Source: Alphaproteobacteria bacterium
Lineage (GTDB): Bacteria; Pseudomonadota; Alphaproteobacteria; Rhodobacterales; Rhodobacteraceae
Direction: 5' to 3'
NCBI GenBank assembly: GCA_030424705.1
Contig: JAUHWJ010000025.1
Coordinates: 1 to 10,563 of the forward strand
DNA length: 10,563 bases
Shown here: positions 2,874-9,280 of the stretch, one piece after another
How the letters are laid out: each line of letters begins with the position of its first letter
Numbering within the stretch: position 1 is the stretch's first letter
The notes under the pieces: generated by a model
What the model was told of the DNA's origin: nothing
The model's input: only the letters and a program-made list of their open reading frames with translations
Databases searched by the model: none
Position numbers and translations under genes: made by a program

Positions 2874-5800
2874 CTACGCGTCTCCCTGCTTCGCGGTCAG
2901 CGCGAGCCTGACAAGGTCCGGGAGGGAAGCGGAGCCGGTCTTTCGCATCACGGCGGCGCGGTGGTTCTCGACGGTGCGCTGGCTGAGGCCGAGATCGGCG
3001 GCGATGTTCTTGTTCGGCATGCCGCCGAGGACCATCTCCATCACCTCCCGCTCGCGCCGCGTGAGGCGGGCGAAGCGCTCCGCCGCTTCGGCGCGCCAGG
3101 CGTCGCCGGCTCCGGCGTCCTTCGCCAGGGCGAGGGCGCGCGCGACGCTGGCGATCAGGTCTTCGGCCGGGATCGGTTTTTCGATGAAGTCGGCGGCGCC
3201 GGCCTTCATCGCGGCGACGGCCATCGCCGTCTCGCCATGGCCGGTGATCATCACCGCCGGGATCGCGCCGCCCTCGTCGCGAAGCCTGCGGAGCATCGCA
3301 ATCCCGTCCATGCCGGGGAGCCTGACATCGGCCACGAGACAGGCGCCGCGCCCGGGGCGGGGCGCAGCGAGGAAATCCTCCGCCGACCGGTAGGCGACCA
3401 CCGCCCAGCCGGAGGATGCGAAGAGCTCGCGCACGGCGTTCAGGACCGCCGGGTCGTCGTCGACGACGTGGACCTCGCCCTCAGCCGTAGTCTCGGCCTT
3501 CGCGGCGGGAGGCTCCGGCTTCGCCCGCCGCGCGCCGGCCAGAAGTTCGTCGATCTTCGCCGTCAGAGCCTCCGCCGTCGCCGGCTTCGAGACCCGCACG
3601 AAAGGCGAGCGCCCGATCTCACCGAGCGTCGCGGCGGTGATGTCGCCGGTCAGGATGATCGTTGGCGGCGCCGCCCCGCCGCCCGCGCCCTCCCGCGCGC
3701 CAAGCGCGGAGCCTATGGCGCCGGCGAGTTCGAGCCCGGTCATGTCGCCGCCGAGATTATGGTCCGTGACCACGAGATCGGGCCGCCGCCCCTCCTCGCC
3801 GATGAGCTTGAGTGCGCCTGCCGCATCGGCGGCGACAAGCACCTCGTGCCCGGCGTCGAGCAGGACGCCCGTCAGGAGGTCGCGAAGGTCCGGCTCGTCC
3901 TCTACCAGGAGGATCGCGCCGCGCTTTCCCGCCACGGCCGCGACCGCCGGCGCCGCGACGACGGGCGCCGCCTCCAGCCGCTCCGCCTCGACGGCGAAGC
4001 CCGAGCCGCCGCCAGGGCGGGAGCGGACCGAGATCCGATGGTCGAGCAGCGATCCGAGGCGCTGCACGATGGAGAGTCCAAGCCCGAGGCCGTGGCCGTG
4101 ACGGCCCGGATCCCGGTCTTCGTCGTCGATCTGGTGATAGGCCTCGAAGATCCGCTCGAGATGCTCCGCCTCCATGCCGATCCCCGTGTCCCAGATCTCG
4201 ATGCTGACCTTGTCGCCGCGGCGGCGGCAGCCGAGGAGGACGCCGCCTTTCCTCGTATACTTGATCGCGTTGGAGAGGAGGTTGCGGAGAATCTGTTCGA
4301 GCAGGCGCGGGTCGCTCCTGATCGTCGCCGAGCAGGGGACAAGCCGCATCCGGAGCCCTCGCTCCTTCGCCAGATGCCCGAACTCCTCCGCCAGGCCGGC
4401 CATCAGCGGCGCGAGGCGGACGGGGCCGATCTCGGGCGCGATATCGCCCGTCTCGATCCGGTTCACGTCGAGCAGCGTGTCGAGCATCGCGGTCATCGAG
4501 GTCAGCGTCCGGTCGAGAAGCGCGGCGAGCCGCGCCTGCTCCGCCGCGCCGGCGCTCTTGCGCAGAAGCGTGTGGACCAGCGTCAGCGTTTGCAGCGGCT
4601 GGCGGAGGTCATGGCTCGCCGCGGCCAGAAACCGGGACTTCGCCGCATCCGCCCGCTCGGCCATGCGCCGCGCCTCCCGAAGCGCCTCCGCGGCGCGGCG
4701 AGCCTCGGTCACTTCCTCAAACGTGATGACGACGCCCTCTATCTCCTTCCGGTCGTTGCGATAGGGCTGCATCCGCCGCGCGAACCATCGGCCGCCGAGG
4801 GCCCCGACCTCCCGCACGATCGGAGCAGCGCCTCCGAGCACCGCCCTCGCGTCCGCTTCAAGCCCCGCGTCGGCGGCCTGCGCGGCGAGGTCGGAAAGCG
4901 GCCGGCCGACATCGGTGGCGATGACGTGAAAGAGCGCGCGCGCCGCCGGGGTGAAGAACCGGATGTTCAGGTCGCGGTCGAGGAACAGGGTCGCGACGTC
5001 GGTCGAATAGAGGACGTTCTGGAGATCGTTGGCGATGGTGCGTTGCCGCTCCATCGTCTCCTGAAGCTGACCGTTGAGCGCGGTCAGCTCCTCGTTCAGC
5101 GATTGCAACTCCTCCTTGGAGGCCAGCAGCTCCTCGTTGGTGGACTGGTATTCCTCGTTGACCGAGAGCGCTTCGGCGGCGTCGCGCACATGCTCCTCCG
5201 CGGACGTCTCGAGATCCCGGAGCGCGCCGCGCACTTCCGCCCGGGACGCTTCGAGCTCGGCTTCCAGTTCGGCGACGCGAGTGGCCTCCGGCCCCGGTTT
5301 CGTCGGCTCTGCGCCTCGTCCGTGTTCGGGCAGGTCGAGGAAGCAGGCGAGGAGCAACGGCTCCGCCTCAACGGAGACCCGGCTGATCTCGACGGAAAAG
5401 GACGCGCCCTCGGCGCTTCGCCCGCCCGTCACCGTGACTGTTCCGCCCTCGCCAAGGCACTTCGCCGCAGCCGCGCGAAGCCGCACCCGCATCGCCCGCG
5501 GCGCCATCGCCAGAAAGTCGAGGCTCGGATGCCCGGGCGCGAGGCGCAGATAGCGTTCGGTCGGCCCGAGAAGATAGAGCGCCTCGAGCCTCTGGTTGAG
5601 CAGCGCAGCCGCGGGCGCGTGCGCCTCCAGAACCAGCCGACGGCAAGTCTCCGCCAGCAGCGCGCGGCGCCCGCCCGCCGGCGGGCCGGGCTGCGGCGCG
5701 CCGGGGCGTGCGAGCGGCATCGTCGGCAGTTCGCCAGGCGCGCCGCGCCCGATCTTGCGCCAGAGCCGCCCGGCCTTGTCCGCAATGTCGAACCGCCCGT

Positions 5801-7274
5801 CCGGCGGCCCCGGCGTCTCCGCCGCGCCGAGCAGAAGCCAGCCGCCAGGAAGAAGCGCAAAGGCGAAAAGGGCGACGAGCCTCCGCTGAGCCTCCGCTCC
5901 GAGATAGATCATCACGTTGCGGCAGGAAACGAGGTCGATCCGCGAGAAGGGCGGATCGGCCAGAAGATCGTGCACGGTGAAGACGATCATTTCGCGCAGG
6001 TCCGGGGAGACGCGCCAGCCCCCGTCCTCCCGGGTGAAAAAGCGCTTCAGCCGGGCTTCGGAGACGCCGCTCGCGACGCCATCGGGATAGAACCCGTCCC
6101 GCGCCGCCGCCACCGCGTCCGGATCGATGTCCGAAGCGAGAATCTGAAGGCGCGCCTCCGAGCCCGCCGCCTCGATCCCTTCGGTGAACGCCATGGCCAG
6201 GGAATAGGCCTCCTCCCCCGTGCTGCACCCGGCGACCCAGATCCGGATCGGCCCCTGTGGCGACAGACCGGCGCCATGCGCGGCGACGATTGCGGGAACC
6301 GTCGTCGTCGCAAGCGCCTCGAACGCCACCGCGTCGCGGAAGAACGAAGTGACGTGGATCAGCAGGTCCGCCGCCAGCAGGTCCAGCTCTTTTGGGTCGG
6401 CGAGGAGCCGCGCGAGATAGAGGCCCGTCGCCTCCGCCGCCAGCGGGATCATCGCCATGCGCCGCGCGACGCGACGGCGGATCGTGCCGGTCTTGTAAAG
6501 CGTCACGTCCTGCGGCGCGCGGGTCCGGACCAGCGCGGTGATCTCCGCCAGCGCGTCCTCCGACGGCGCTTGCGACTCGGCGGTCGCTGGGTCGTGCGCC
6601 GCCAAAGGCGCGGCGAGGTCCGGCCAGCGCTTGACCAGCGCCGGGATGACGTCCTCCGCCGGAAGCACAAGATCGACAAGCCCAGTGGCGATCGCGCTCT
6701 CCGGCATGCCGGGATAGCCGGCCTCCTCCGGGCTCTGGGCGATCACGAACCCGCCTGCCGCCTTCAGCACTGCGAGCCCGGCGGAACCGTCCGCCGCCGT
6801 GCCCGAGAGCACGACGCAGCCCGCAAGTGGCCCGACCTCCACAGCCAGAGAGACGAGCAGATGGTCGAACGGCAGCCGCACCCCGCGCCCCCCGTCCAGC
6901 TTGTCGAGCCGGAGCGCCCCCTTCGAGACGGAAAGCTGCGCGCCCGGCGGGATGACATGCACCCGCCCCGGCCGAAGCCGCATGCCCTCCGTCGCCTCGA
7001 CCACGTCGAGCGCCGTGCCTCGCGCCAGCAATCCCGCCGCGAGGCTCTCATGCTTCGGGTCGAGATGCAGCACGAGGATGAAGGCCATCCCGATATTGGC
7101 GGGCGCCGCCGCGAGCAGCAGCCGGCAAGCCTCCAGTCCGCCCGCCGACGCGCCGATGGCGACCACAGGACAGGGGAGAGGTGGCCGCCGACGCAGGGGC
7201 GTTGCAGCGTCCGAAGCCGACGGCGCTGTGGGCGCGCCGGAACGCGCTCCCGATGATCGCCCGGGCGCTGACAT
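2874..7274 (-). CDS. Giant hybrid signalling protein: CheB-CheR-PAS-histidine kinase-REC-REC-LuxR
   Basis: 1466 residues, no membrane segment or signal peptide. Order: CheB-type methylesterase without its usual receiver (35-215; GASAGG Ser43, His70, Asp162); CheR-type methyltransferase (235-505; SAM loop VAGCSTGEEAYSLAM, then CRNVMIYL); divergent PAS-like region (535-650); Glu-rich coiled coil with NEE/LNEEL repeats (662-745); PAS (746-858); HisKA kinase (phospho-accepting His888 in ASHDLRQPL); ATPase domain (985-1096; NLLSNAIKYT, DTGIGM, GLGLGLSIV); receiver 1 (phospho-Asp1171, Lys1230); Pro/Ala-rich linker (1247-1266); receiver 2 of FixJ type (DDD 1272-1274, Asp1316, Thr1344, Lys1366); LuxR-type helix-turn-helix (1402-1462). 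All key residues are present. CheB-CheR-kinase fusions are known, and the FixJ-like regulator is often a separate neighbouring gene; here it is fused in frame. The signal is unknown. The ATG at 7274 has no strong ribosome site. Confidence 0.93.
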   Translation of the reverse strand: MSAPGRSSGARSGAPTAPSASDAATPLRRRPPLPCPVVAIGASAGGLEACRLLLAAAPANIGMAFILVLHLDPKHESLAAGLLARGTALDVVEATEGMRLRPGRVHVIPPGAQLSVSKGALRLDKLDGGRGVRLPFDHLLVSLAVEVGPLAGCVVLSGTAADGSAGLAVLKAAGGFVIAQSPEEAGYPGMPESAIATGLVDLVLPAEDVIPALVKRWPDLAAPLAAHDPATAESQAPSEDALAEITALVRTRAPQDVTLYKTGTIRRRVARRMAMIPLAAEATGLYLARLLADPKELDLLAADLLIHVTSFFRDAVAFEALATTTVPAIVAAHGAGLSPQGPIRIWVAGCSTGEEAYSLAMAFTEGIEAAGSEARLQILASDIDPDAVAAARDGFYPDGVASGVSEARLKRFFTREDGGWRVSPDLREMIVFTVHDLLADPPFSRIDLVSCRNVMIYLGAEAQRRLVALFAFALLPGGWLLLGAAETPGPPDGRFDIADKAGRLWRKIGRGAPGELPTMPLARPGAPQPGPPAGGRRALLAETCRRLVLEAHAPAAALLNQRLEALYLLGPTERYLRLAPGHPSLDFLAMAPRAMRVRLRAAAAKCLGEGGTVTVTGGRSAEGASFSVEISRVSVEAEPLLLACFLDLPEHGRGAEPTKPGPEATRVAELEAELEASRAEVRGALRDLETSAEEHVRDAAEALSVNEEYQSTNEELLASKEELQSLNEELTALNGQLQETMERQRTIANDLQNVLYSTDVATLFLDRDLNIRFFTPAARALFHVIATDVGRPLSDLAAQAADAGLEADARAVLGGAAPIVREVGALGGRWFARRMQPYRNDRKEIEGVVITFEEVTEARRAAEALREARRMAERADAAKSRFLAAASHDLRQPLQTLTLVHTLLRKSAGAAEQARLAALLDRTLTSMTAMLDTLLDVNRIETGDIAPEIGPVRLAPLMAGLAEEFGHLAKERGLRMRLVPCSATIRSDPRLLEQILRNLLSNAIKYTRKGGVLLGCRRRGDKVSIEIWDTGIGMEAEHLERIFEAYHQIDDEDRDPGRHGHGLGLGLSIVQRLGSLLDHRISVRSRPGGGSGFAVEAERLEAAPVVAAPAVAAVAGKRGAILLVEDEPDLRDLLTGVLLDAGHEVLVAADAAGALKLIGEEGRRPDLVVTDHNLGGDMTGLELAGAIGSALGAREGAGGGAAPPTIILTGDITAATLGEIGRSPFVRVSKPATAEALTAKIDELLAGARRAKPEPPAAKAETTAEGEVHVVDDDPAVLNAVRELFASSGWAVVAYRSAEDFLAAPRPGRGACLVADVRLPGMDGIAMLRRLRDEGGAIPAVMITGHGETAMAVAAMKAGAADFIEKPIPAEDLIASVARALALAKDAGAGDAWRAEAAERFARLTRREREVMEMVLGGMPNKNIAADLGLSQRTVENHRAAVMRKTGSASLPDLVRLALTAKQGDA

Positions 7275-8037: not shown

Positions 8038-8424
8038 ATGGGGCCGGAGCTGGCCGCCCTCGCGGAGAACGCCGCGAGCCGGGCGGCCCGCTCCTTCACA
8101 TGGCTGGCGCTTGGTTTGGCGGCGCCGGCGCTCCTTGGCGCGGCGGCGCTCGGCTTCCTCACCGCGGCCGGCTTCGGCCTTCTCTCGGCTGAGATCGGGC
8201 CGATCGCCGCCTCGTTCGCCTTCGCAGCGCTCTTCGCTTTCCTGGCGCTCATTGCACATCTCGCGCGCCGCGCCGCGGCGGCCCGAAGAGGCAGGAAGGC
8301 GGCTGCGGCGCAGGCGCGAATGGACGGGGCGGTCGCCTCGGCGCGCGCCCTCGCAAGCGCCCCGGGTCTTCTCGCGCCTGTCGCCGCCTTTGTCGCCGCC
8401 TTCATGTTGGCGCGGCGGCGTTGA
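8038..8424 (+). CDS. Holin-family/YqjE-like membrane protein
   Basis: 128 residues with two close membrane helices (about 20-48 and 53-76), a basic Ala/Arg-rich cytoplasmic helix (77-105) and a third hydrophobic segment near the C-terminus (108-125) ending ARRR. Small proteins with a helical hairpin plus basic tail next to a DUF883 gene are usually assigned to the phage holin 3-6/YqjE group; despite the name these are not phage lysis genes. I assign it on topology and gene order, not on specific motifs. There is no clear ribosome site: its ATG lies 2 bases after the preceding stop, so translation probably depends on coupling. Its stop overlaps an in-frame TTG/ATG of the following sigma factor frame, though that gene's likely start is 30 bases on. 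Confidence 0.6.
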   Translation: MGPELAALAENAASRAARSFTWLALGLAAPALLGAAALGFLTAAGFGLLSAEIGPIAASFAFAALFAFLALIAHLARRAAAARRGRKAAAAQARMDGAVASARALASAPGLLAPVAAFVAAFMLARRR

Positions 8425-8453
8425 TGCCAACCACAAACCGACGGGAGCCGCCC

Positions 8454-9026
8454 ATGATCGAGCTTCACCCCTTTCATCACCAACTCGCGGAAGAAACGCC
8501 GGCCCTCCTGCGGCTCGCCCGCCACCTCACGCGAAACGAACACAGCGCGCAGGACCTGGCGCAGGAAACGCTGAGAAAGGCGTGGAGCGCGCGGGAAGGA
8601 TATCAACCCGGCGCCCGGCTCCGCGCATGGCTCTTCACCATCCTCCGGAACACCCACATCTCGGAACGCCGCAGGCATCGCCGCGAAGTGGAGGACATTG
8701 GCGGGGCGCTCGCCGGCGCGCTGACGCAGGAGGGAGCGCAGGAGCATGTCCTTGCGCTGGCGGAGCTGACTGCGGCCATGTCGACGCTGCCTTTCGAGCA
8801 ACGCGAGGCGCTGCTTCTGGTCGGCGGCGCCGGCTACTCCCATGAAGAGGCGGCGCTCGTGACGGGCTGCGCCGTGGGCACGGTCAAGAGCCGGGTCAGC
8901 CGCGCCCGCGCCCGGCTGGAAGTCATCCTGGCGCCGCCTTGCGCCGACGCGTCGATCGACGTTCGACGGCCCGAGCCCTCGACACGAAAGCATCTCAGAC
9001 ACGACGTCCACGGCGCCGCCGCGTGA
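8454..9026 (+). CDS. ecfG: EcfG-like (ECF15-type) general stress sigma factor
   Basis: 190 residues. Region sigma-2 (about 14-80) reads QDLAQETLRKAW...GYQPGARLRAWLFTILRN followed by SERRRHRREVED; region sigma-4 (about 101-155) reads LPFEQREALLLVGGAGYSHEEAALVTGCAVGTVKSRVSRARARL. The RREVED motif and the GCAVGTVKSRV helix are hallmarks of EcfG, which directs RNA polymerase to general-stress promoters in alphaproteobacteria and is held off by NepR and released by phosphorylated PhyR. The C-terminal tail (160-190) is poorly structured. I chose the ATG at 8454, six bases after GGGAG; in-frame TTG/ATG codons at 8421/8424 overlap the preceding stop. No nepR or phyR is visible, unusual for the primary ecfG, so this may be a paralogue. 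A consensus EcfG-type promoter lies 8 bases beyond its stop. Confidence 0.88.
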   Translation: MIELHPFHHQLAEETPALLRLARHLTRNEHSAQDLAQETLRKAWSAREGYQPGARLRAWLFTILRNTHISERRRHRREVEDIGGALAGALTQEGAQEHVLALAELTAAMSTLPFEQREALLLVGGAGYSHEEAALVTGCAVGTVKSRVSRARARLEVILAPPCADASIDVRRPEPSTRKHLRHDVHGAAA

Positions 9027-9121: not shown

Positions 9122-9280
9122 ATGGATCATTCGAAGGCTTTCGGCCGTAACGCGCTCGTCGCGGCCGCTTTCGTCGCGCTGCTGCTTTCCGCCTGCAACA
9201 CGACCTCCGGCTTCGGCCAGGACCTTGGCGCAGCGGGAAATGCGATCAGCGACGCCGCAGAGGACGCGAAGTCGGAATAG
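9122..9280 (+). CDS. Entericidin A/B-like small lipoprotein
   Basis: 52 residues: a basic N-terminus, a hydrophobic stretch (11-24) and a lipobox LLSAC with Cys25 as the predicted lipidation site, leaving a 28-residue mature lipopeptide (NTTSGFGQDLGAAGNAISDAAEDA). The ACNT...GxGxDxxxAGxAIxxAA pattern is that of the entericidin family. In E. coli EcnA/EcnB form an antidote/toxin pair, with EcnB under the stationary-phase sigma factor; alphaproteobacterial relatives usually occur singly and their role is not established. Export by Sec, lipidation and membrane anchoring are expected. The ATG at 9122 is preceded by AAAGAGA; an out-of-frame ATG at 9117 is ignored. The EcfG-type promoter upstream suggests induction in stress, parallel to sigma-S control in enterobacteria. 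Confidence 0.88.
   Translation: MDHSKAFGRNALVAAAFVALLLSACNTTSGFGQDLGAAGNAISDAAEDAKSE

Follow-up and report, generated by a model that had tools for sequence, protein, structure and literature searches.

In chemoreceptors, Glu/Gln pairs recur at a seven-residue spacing in long helices and are modified by CheR and CheB; the methylation sites of Tsr, for example, are 297, 304, 311 and 493 (PMC6829392). CheR has also been found joined to another domain, as in the CheR-TPR fusions FrzF and WspC, which have been tied to alternative cellular functions (excerpt of PMC3447774). Proteins in which CheB and CheR are themselves joined ("two-component system CheB/CheR fusion protein") commonly consist of an N-terminal CheB-CheR part, a Glu-rich helix and a PAS_10 domain, and many database records call them chemotaxis proteins. 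A CheB-CheR hybrid is mentioned in Rhodospirillum centenum, in an excerpt that does not name its substrate (PMC2890560), and the expression of a CheB/CheR chimera of Phaeobacter inhibens was unchanged in CtrA-pathway mutants, again with no substrate named in the portion concerned (PMC11974857).

The window analysed here (the whole stretch of DNA, 10,563 nucleotides) is one entire contig (C487) of a genome that is 66.6% complete in 654 contigs. On its minus strand, at 2874..7274, lies one gene with the order CheB-CheR-PAS-helix-PAS-HisKA-HATPase-REC-REC-LuxR. Counted from its ATG it encodes 1466 aa with no internal stop in the ORF analysis, as the preliminary description of this DNA had stated; the start codon is uncertain, and the database copy of the fusion begins at residue 37 and has 1430 aa. 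Because a relative of 1427 aa, 84% identical to the fusion, sits on a separate 28 kb contig, a misassembly is unlikely. On the plus strand an antisense frame of 1431 codons (2961-7256) covers almost all of the gene and probably just mirrors its G+C-rich codon usage.

All parts of the protein are given here with their minus-strand coordinates. The CheB methylesterase domain (residues 38-212, 6639..7163; Pfam E 1.6e-48) contains S43, H70 and D162 and is preceded by no Pfam match before residue 38; as already recognised, it has no receiver ahead of it, unlike canonical chemotaxis CheB. The CheR methyltransferase (residues 242-487, 5814..6551) carries R313, D382 and N453 and is matched by Pfam at E 2.8e-47 for residues 308-487, with a weak CheR_N match at 242-274 (19.8 bits vs a cut-off of 27). 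Next comes PAS-A (residues 533-647, 5334..5678), a PAS-fold domain that is absent from the Pfam matches and was missing from the earlier domain list, whose named domains Pfam does find. Since residues 533-647 form this second PAS-fold domain, the coil is flanked by two PAS domains. AlphaFold2 predicts a single continuous helix (residues 662-756, 5007..5291) that links PAS-A to PAS-B, so that the coil first placed at 662-745 is present as part of a longer helix; the model has a pTM of 0.41, at which the position of the helix on CheR is unreliable. Within the helix lies a Glu-Glu array (residues 701-745, 5040..5174) with pairs at 707/708, 714/715, 721/722 and 728/729, the proposed substrate of the protein's own CheR and CheB. 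It is followed by PAS-B, a PAS_10 domain (residues 751-856, 4707..5024; Pfam E 2.3e-24), by HisKA with the phospho-acceptor H888 (878-943, 4446..4643; Pfam and alignment) and by HATPase_c (988-1095, 3990..4313; Pfam). Receiver 1 (about 1118-1245, 3540..3923; D1171, Pfam and alignment) is joined through a variable linker (about 1246-1266, 3477..3539, from the alignment) to receiver 2 (1268-1377, 3144..3473; D1316), which is the better Pfam match of the two receivers and is FixJ-like together with GerE (Pfam and the FixJ model). The chain ends in a LuxR/GerE helix-turn-helix (1403-1458, 2901..3068; Pfam E 2.1e-17). A linker ahead of REC-LuxR had been described and exists, and the stretch 1244-1266 ranges from 11 to 33 residues (median 22) among 193 sequences. 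Neither MCPsignal (PF00015, at E 0.01) nor an Hpt domain is among the Pfam matches of the chain. The protein thus has all features of a hybrid histidine kinase (HisKA with its His, HATPase_c, a receiver with its Asp) and those of a CheB/CheR fusion (both catalytic domains and their residues on one chain, and a Glu-rich helix followed by PAS_10).

The signature residues, which had been read as intact, are present and near-invariant in an alignment of 193 sequences (the query, 119 proteins and 73 loci; sampled pairs have a median identity of 51%). CheB S43 is kept in 191 of the 192 sequences with a letter there and H70 and D162 in 192/193; CheR R313, D382 and N453 in 193/193; H888 in 192/193; and D1171 and D1316 in 193/193. 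The joining of REC-LuxR to the kinase had been thought unusual, a view that does not hold. In a full-length search the best 120 of 7999 scored candidates, the query's own copy apart, all share its main Pfam domains, with identities of 52-84% and coverages of 96-99%. The chain occurs in a single frame in 9 of 289 genomes drawn evenly from the class (G000, G051, G313, G282, G300, G307, G301, G164 and G071), with a tenth carrier, G218, that has a frame break. Among named genomes a scan retained 80 loci, which by title are mostly from Alphaproteobacteria with some from Burkholderiales, and the C-terminal half was matched in 25 plasmid records at E 1e-100. The listed matches, genome scans and plasmid records rule out that the fusion is rare, though it is absent from the other three genomes searched in the window's genus. 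On whether the architecture is both common and characterised, a question raised in the preliminary description, the full-length search answers the first half with yes; the open-access literature yielded no functional study of such fusions and no paper giving the substrate of one.

What do the CheR and CheB parts act on? Conservation and gene losses suggest that it is the Glu-rich rod in the same protein rather than chemoreceptors. We lean towards a reading in which the protein is a soluble one-chain device from sensor to DNA, whose own CheR and CheB would methylate and demethylate the inter-PAS helix and so tune the kinase, with LuxR as output. CheR, from the same chain or across the dimer, would methylate glutamates of the helix, and CheB would demethylate them; by analogy with chemoreceptors the likeliest targets are the second residues of the pairs (E708, E715, E722 and E729). 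How strongly PAS-A and PAS-B signals switch the histidine kinase would then be set by the charge that the helix carries. H888 would be autophosphorylated and its phosphate would pass to D1171 and/or D1316, in an order of steps that is not readable from sequence, and phosphorylated receiver 2 may release or dimerise the LuxR helix-turn-helix. If CheR and CheB do act on their own helix, chemoreceptor-type adaptation would thus sit in a transcriptional two-component protein, with no chemoreceptors needed. The substrate is placed on the same chain because CheR and the helix have been lost jointly and because carriers without chemoreceptors and CheW exist.

The array coincides with the most conserved part of the protein. 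Across the 193 sequences the 30-residue segment of lowest entropy is 710-739 (0.193 vs 0.501 for the next), below any catalytic region. Conservation taken from the loci of the named-genome scan alone is unsafe, and it was recomputed on 33 and on 120 other sequences because 2 of the 6 search patterns of that scan fall within the coil. The 33 CheR-bearing sequences, most of them picked with a query beginning behind the coil, again have their lowest segment here (712-741, mean entropy 0.252 vs 0.534 for the next), as do the 120 sequences of the protein search (coil segment 0.149 vs 0.338 for the next), and in both sets the eight Glu positions are invariant but for one Asp. The pairs lie exactly seven residues apart in a predicted helix, a repeat like that of chemoreceptor Glu/Gln pairs and one that agrees with Tsr 297/304/311. 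They match 5, 5, 4 and 4 of the 6 positions of the chemoreceptor methylation consensus, and the strict form, [ASTG][ASTG]xx[EQ][EQ]xx[ASTG][ASTG] as given in an excerpt of PMC6829392, has no site anywhere in the fusion protein.

That shortfall from the strict consensus favours the main rival explanation, in which the helix serves CheR as a dock or support, positioning the enzyme as a rod or pseudo-substrate would; it stays unmethylated, and it decays after CheR loss when it has nothing to hold. It is also in keeping with this explanation that the non-acidic N713, S719, L723, Q724, N727 and L730 are as invariant in the alignment as the Glu pairs. A support rod, however, has no obvious need for four Glu pairs at chemoreceptor spacing, and in more distant CheB-CheR fusions, L002 among them, the NEEL arrays are longer and differ in repeat number with the repeat unit kept, a pattern easier to reconcile with a modification site that recurs than with a single docking face. 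We consider docking unlikely. A relaxed pattern found such arrays in 9 of 12 further loci, and L093 and L100 also show arrays when four EE pairs are required. L002 (G000:C225) is a second CheB-CheR-helix-PAS gene in the window's own genome, an 845-codon frame with about eight NEEL repeats whose match to the query stops at PAS-B. A distant query made of coil and PAS matched 197 plasmid records; among the 60 listed, 32 came with a feature name, which was CheB or CheR in 29, and the other three features occur together with CheR sequence, which in two cases is broken or split. Hybrid kinases without CheR can also bear EEL-type coils.

Self-modification of the helix does not require that chemoreceptors be present, and some carriers have none. 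The chemoreceptor test covered 57 handles from 56 genomes, perhaps 55 distinct ones since G313 and G410 (both with chemoreceptors) gave identical coordinates. Nine of the 56 fusion-bearing genomes have no PF00015 match. CheW likewise has no match in these nine and is present in 4/4 other fusion-bearing genomes checked. All nine chemoreceptor-free fusions keep the S/H/D and R/D/N residues, the pairs (with one ED in L053), H888, D1171 and D1316. One of these carriers, G029, belongs to the window's family and is listed as 100% complete; absence is less sure in G384, G402 and G406, as these are metagenome bins by title. Such carriers speak against the possibility that CheR and CheB work in trans on chemoreceptors or another protein, with the coil as an ordinary signalling helix between PAS and kinase. 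The other 47 genomes do have chemoreceptors, among them the window's genome with 3 chemoreceptor-domain matches, where a role in trans is possible because they are present, and the chemotaxis names in many records point the same way. A generic signalling helix should, though, outlast CheR as the PAS domains do, and it does not: among the 12 loci without intact CheR described below, PAS-B is kept in 12/12 and PAS-A, which lies between CheR and the coil, in 7/12. Such action in trans seems improbable to us.

The joint fate of helix and CheR was followed in 51 loci, two of which (L204 and L205) came from the whole-protein query and the others from a search with residues 746-1466. Given that the query begins behind the coil, neither CheR nor the coil was selected for, L204 and L205 apart. 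From genomes the set holds all 19 rows of one search, 10/11 of another (three common to both) and L153 in addition; G340:C570 (L203) was dropped for having no kinase match above 300 bits. From plasmids it holds 22 of 28 places, omitting H4, H7 and H18 (identity and scores equal to H3, H6 and H17) and three second places. Searches of G282's family and order returned the same 5 genomes and one added locus, and a third protein search was left out of the counts. Loci were scored with profiles built from the alignment and residue by residue; L112, L151 and L209, where CheR lies wholly or partly in a different frame or gene, were counted as encoding it, and L200, L201 and L202 end at contig edges. 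L209 (3359-7639, on a Methylocapsa polymorpha plasmid) is a split chain: a first annotated gene covers CheB and the start of CheR, and a second the remainder of the fusion.

Among the loci examined with their DNA, a complete array is confined to those that encode CheR. All four acidic pairs are kept in 39/39 CheR-encoding loci (38 strictly EE, with one DE in L113) and in 0/12 loci without intact CheR (Fisher 6e-12, kinship ignored). On a tree of the kinase-to-LuxR part, which took 49 of the 51 loci (two were too short), the CheR label has to change 7 times, and well supported branches force 5 of these changes; the array label, set from the residue scoring, is identical to the CheR label in every row and therefore changes the same way each time. 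Independent loss pairs are few, and a sign test gives 0.0625 for 5 and 0.016 for 7. Essentially no coil is left in L153, L154, L155 and five Shinella records, and part of it in L152, L160 and L214. L156 has a degenerate CheR (R313 and N453 changed), no CheB, and has lost the pairs; L152 keeps three of the four pairs (QE, EE, EE) without CheR. Counted as Glu and as other conserved coil positions, the remnants keep 5/8 and 20/28 (L214), 5/8 and 14/28 (L152), 4/8 and 18/28 (L160) and 2/8 and 10/28 (L156). The entire coil decays where intact CheR is missing, with the Glu pairs not going first, which is again compatible with docking.

The losses are of two separate stretches, CheR and the helix, with PAS-A retained between them in Shinella and L214. 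Conserved PAS-A positions number 8/9 in the five Shinella records, 9/9 in the Neorhizobium locus L214 and 7/9 in L156. Pfam finds no CheR in L214 or L158. On both flanks the annotated genes around Shinella L158 and L217 match those around CheR-bearing L211, with aminomutase and response regulator at one end and GDP-sugar and glycosyltransferase genes at the other; the remaining three Shinella records are without annotation there. L214 likewise shares its annotated neighbours with CheR-bearing L215. In the tree L211 is sister to L158/L217, and L164/L215 to L214. These six loci, of Rhizobiaceae type, have a common plasmid setting, in the order glutamate-1-semialdehyde aminomutase, response regulator, fusion and sugar-polymer genes, and as this setting holds CheR-bearing and CheR-less versions it amounts to a natural experiment. 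Two organism labels are doubtful: L211 ("Roseateles sp. XES5", title UNVERIFIED_ORG) groups with Shinella by neighbours and tree, and L028 ("Mycobacterium sp. KBS0706") has a fusion of alphaproteobacterial type. CheB can be told apart from CheR in two loci. In L214 the CheB triad is intact, CheR is absent and the pairs read EE, EE, KE and QG; in L113 it is the CheB triad that is broken, and both the CheR residues and the array are retained. On these two loci the helix follows CheR, not CheB. In the Shinella records CheB has lost its Asp in 4/5 and its Ser in the remaining one.

These losses would be uninformative if the CheR-less relatives were decaying pseudogenes or assembly breaks. L160 does have a frame break in its C-terminal part, and CheR could conceivably lie farther upstream of L152 and L153, as both are at contig ends. 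All 12 loci, however, keep 56-60 of 60 HisKA-HATPase positions, so they are not plain pseudogenes, and they keep H888 and D1171 in 12/12 and D1316 in 11/12; the Shinella layout is moreover identical in five plasmid records, from two named species and one further strain. Decay or broken assembly as an explanation is highly improbable. Among 120 short proteins listed, 78 have a four-pair array, 74 of them with no listed CheR domain and 4 with one, in a count made on protein entries alone. The 74 may count in favour of action in trans, and the set, limited to 710 aa, favours truncated copies; in 17 of the 120 the sequence starts no more than 25 residues ahead of the array. Should many of the 74 be complete proteins that truly have no CheR, the association of helix and CheR would weaken. 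A by-eye pick of short proteins that seem to lack CheR and have lost the array was discarded as evidence, since the choice leaned on the array itself.

The neighbourhood offers hints of a different kind. Pfam identifies a transglutaminase (about 204-1142), a PRC-barrel protein (2285-2809) and an ECF sigma factor (8421-9026) around the gene. On plasmids of other genera, PRC-barrel proteins (L166, L206, L212) and transglutaminases (L209, L213) lie near the fusion, and in L159 a sigma-70 family factor is accompanied by ferritin-like and DUF892 proteins. These recurring neighbours hint at a general or envelope stress role. The ECF-type sigma factor of the window is on the plus strand; its best model is PRK12546 (175 bits, cut-off 270), and it shows likeness to the PhyR sigma-like domain (39.1 bits, cut-off 27). 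A short lipoprotein-like frame at 9122-9280 (+), with a cysteine after a hydrophobic stretch, we take by eye to be entericidin-like. Upstream of the fusion, 5 of the plasmid loci encode on the other strand a small stand-alone response regulator that may be its partner in trans (L165:2648-3022, L206:2795-3154, L207:2802-3161, L208:2337-2699 and L210:1946-2308).

The interpretation in the preliminary description is partly supported as a whole and its observation is confirmed; its suggestion that the protein may modify its own Glu-rich coil has been strengthened by the conservation of the coil, its loss with CheR and the carriers without chemoreceptors. Our modest preference is that the widespread CheB/CheR-PAS-kinase fusions are self-adapting kinases, in which reversible carboxyl methylation would reset a transcriptional phosphorelay, with or without chemotaxis. 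If so, methyl-based adaptation beyond chemoreceptor arrays would be a common, portable module of gene regulation, and receptor-style methylation a general device that tunes two-component gene regulation. The four named glutamates, with Shinella and Neorhizobium as natural controls, are open to direct assay.

Compared with the systems already described, the domain order is no different from that of known CheB/CheR fusions; what is added to them here is a PAS domain (PAS-A) ahead of the helix, the association of that helix with CheR, and the existence of carriers that lack chemoreceptors. REC2-LuxR is FixJ-like, with a REC and a LuxR/GerE domain and a phmmer E of 6.9e-43 to solved FixJ, though its 226.5 bits are below the cut-off of 255 of the NCBIfam FixJ model and, in contrast to FixL/FixJ, the regulator is joined to its kinase. 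For HK-REC1 the nearest model is that of NahK/ErcS-type hybrid kinases (301.7 bits, below the NCBIfam cut-off of 400), from which the fusion differs in having CheB-CheR in front. FrzF/WspC-type CheR-TPR fusions act on separate receptors and, unlike the fusion here, have no kinase or CheB on the chain. Chemoreceptors share the Glu pairs at seven-residue spacing, but the fusion has neither MCPsignal nor the strict consensus, and it brings the enzymes, their proposed substrate, a kinase and a DNA-binding output together on one chain.
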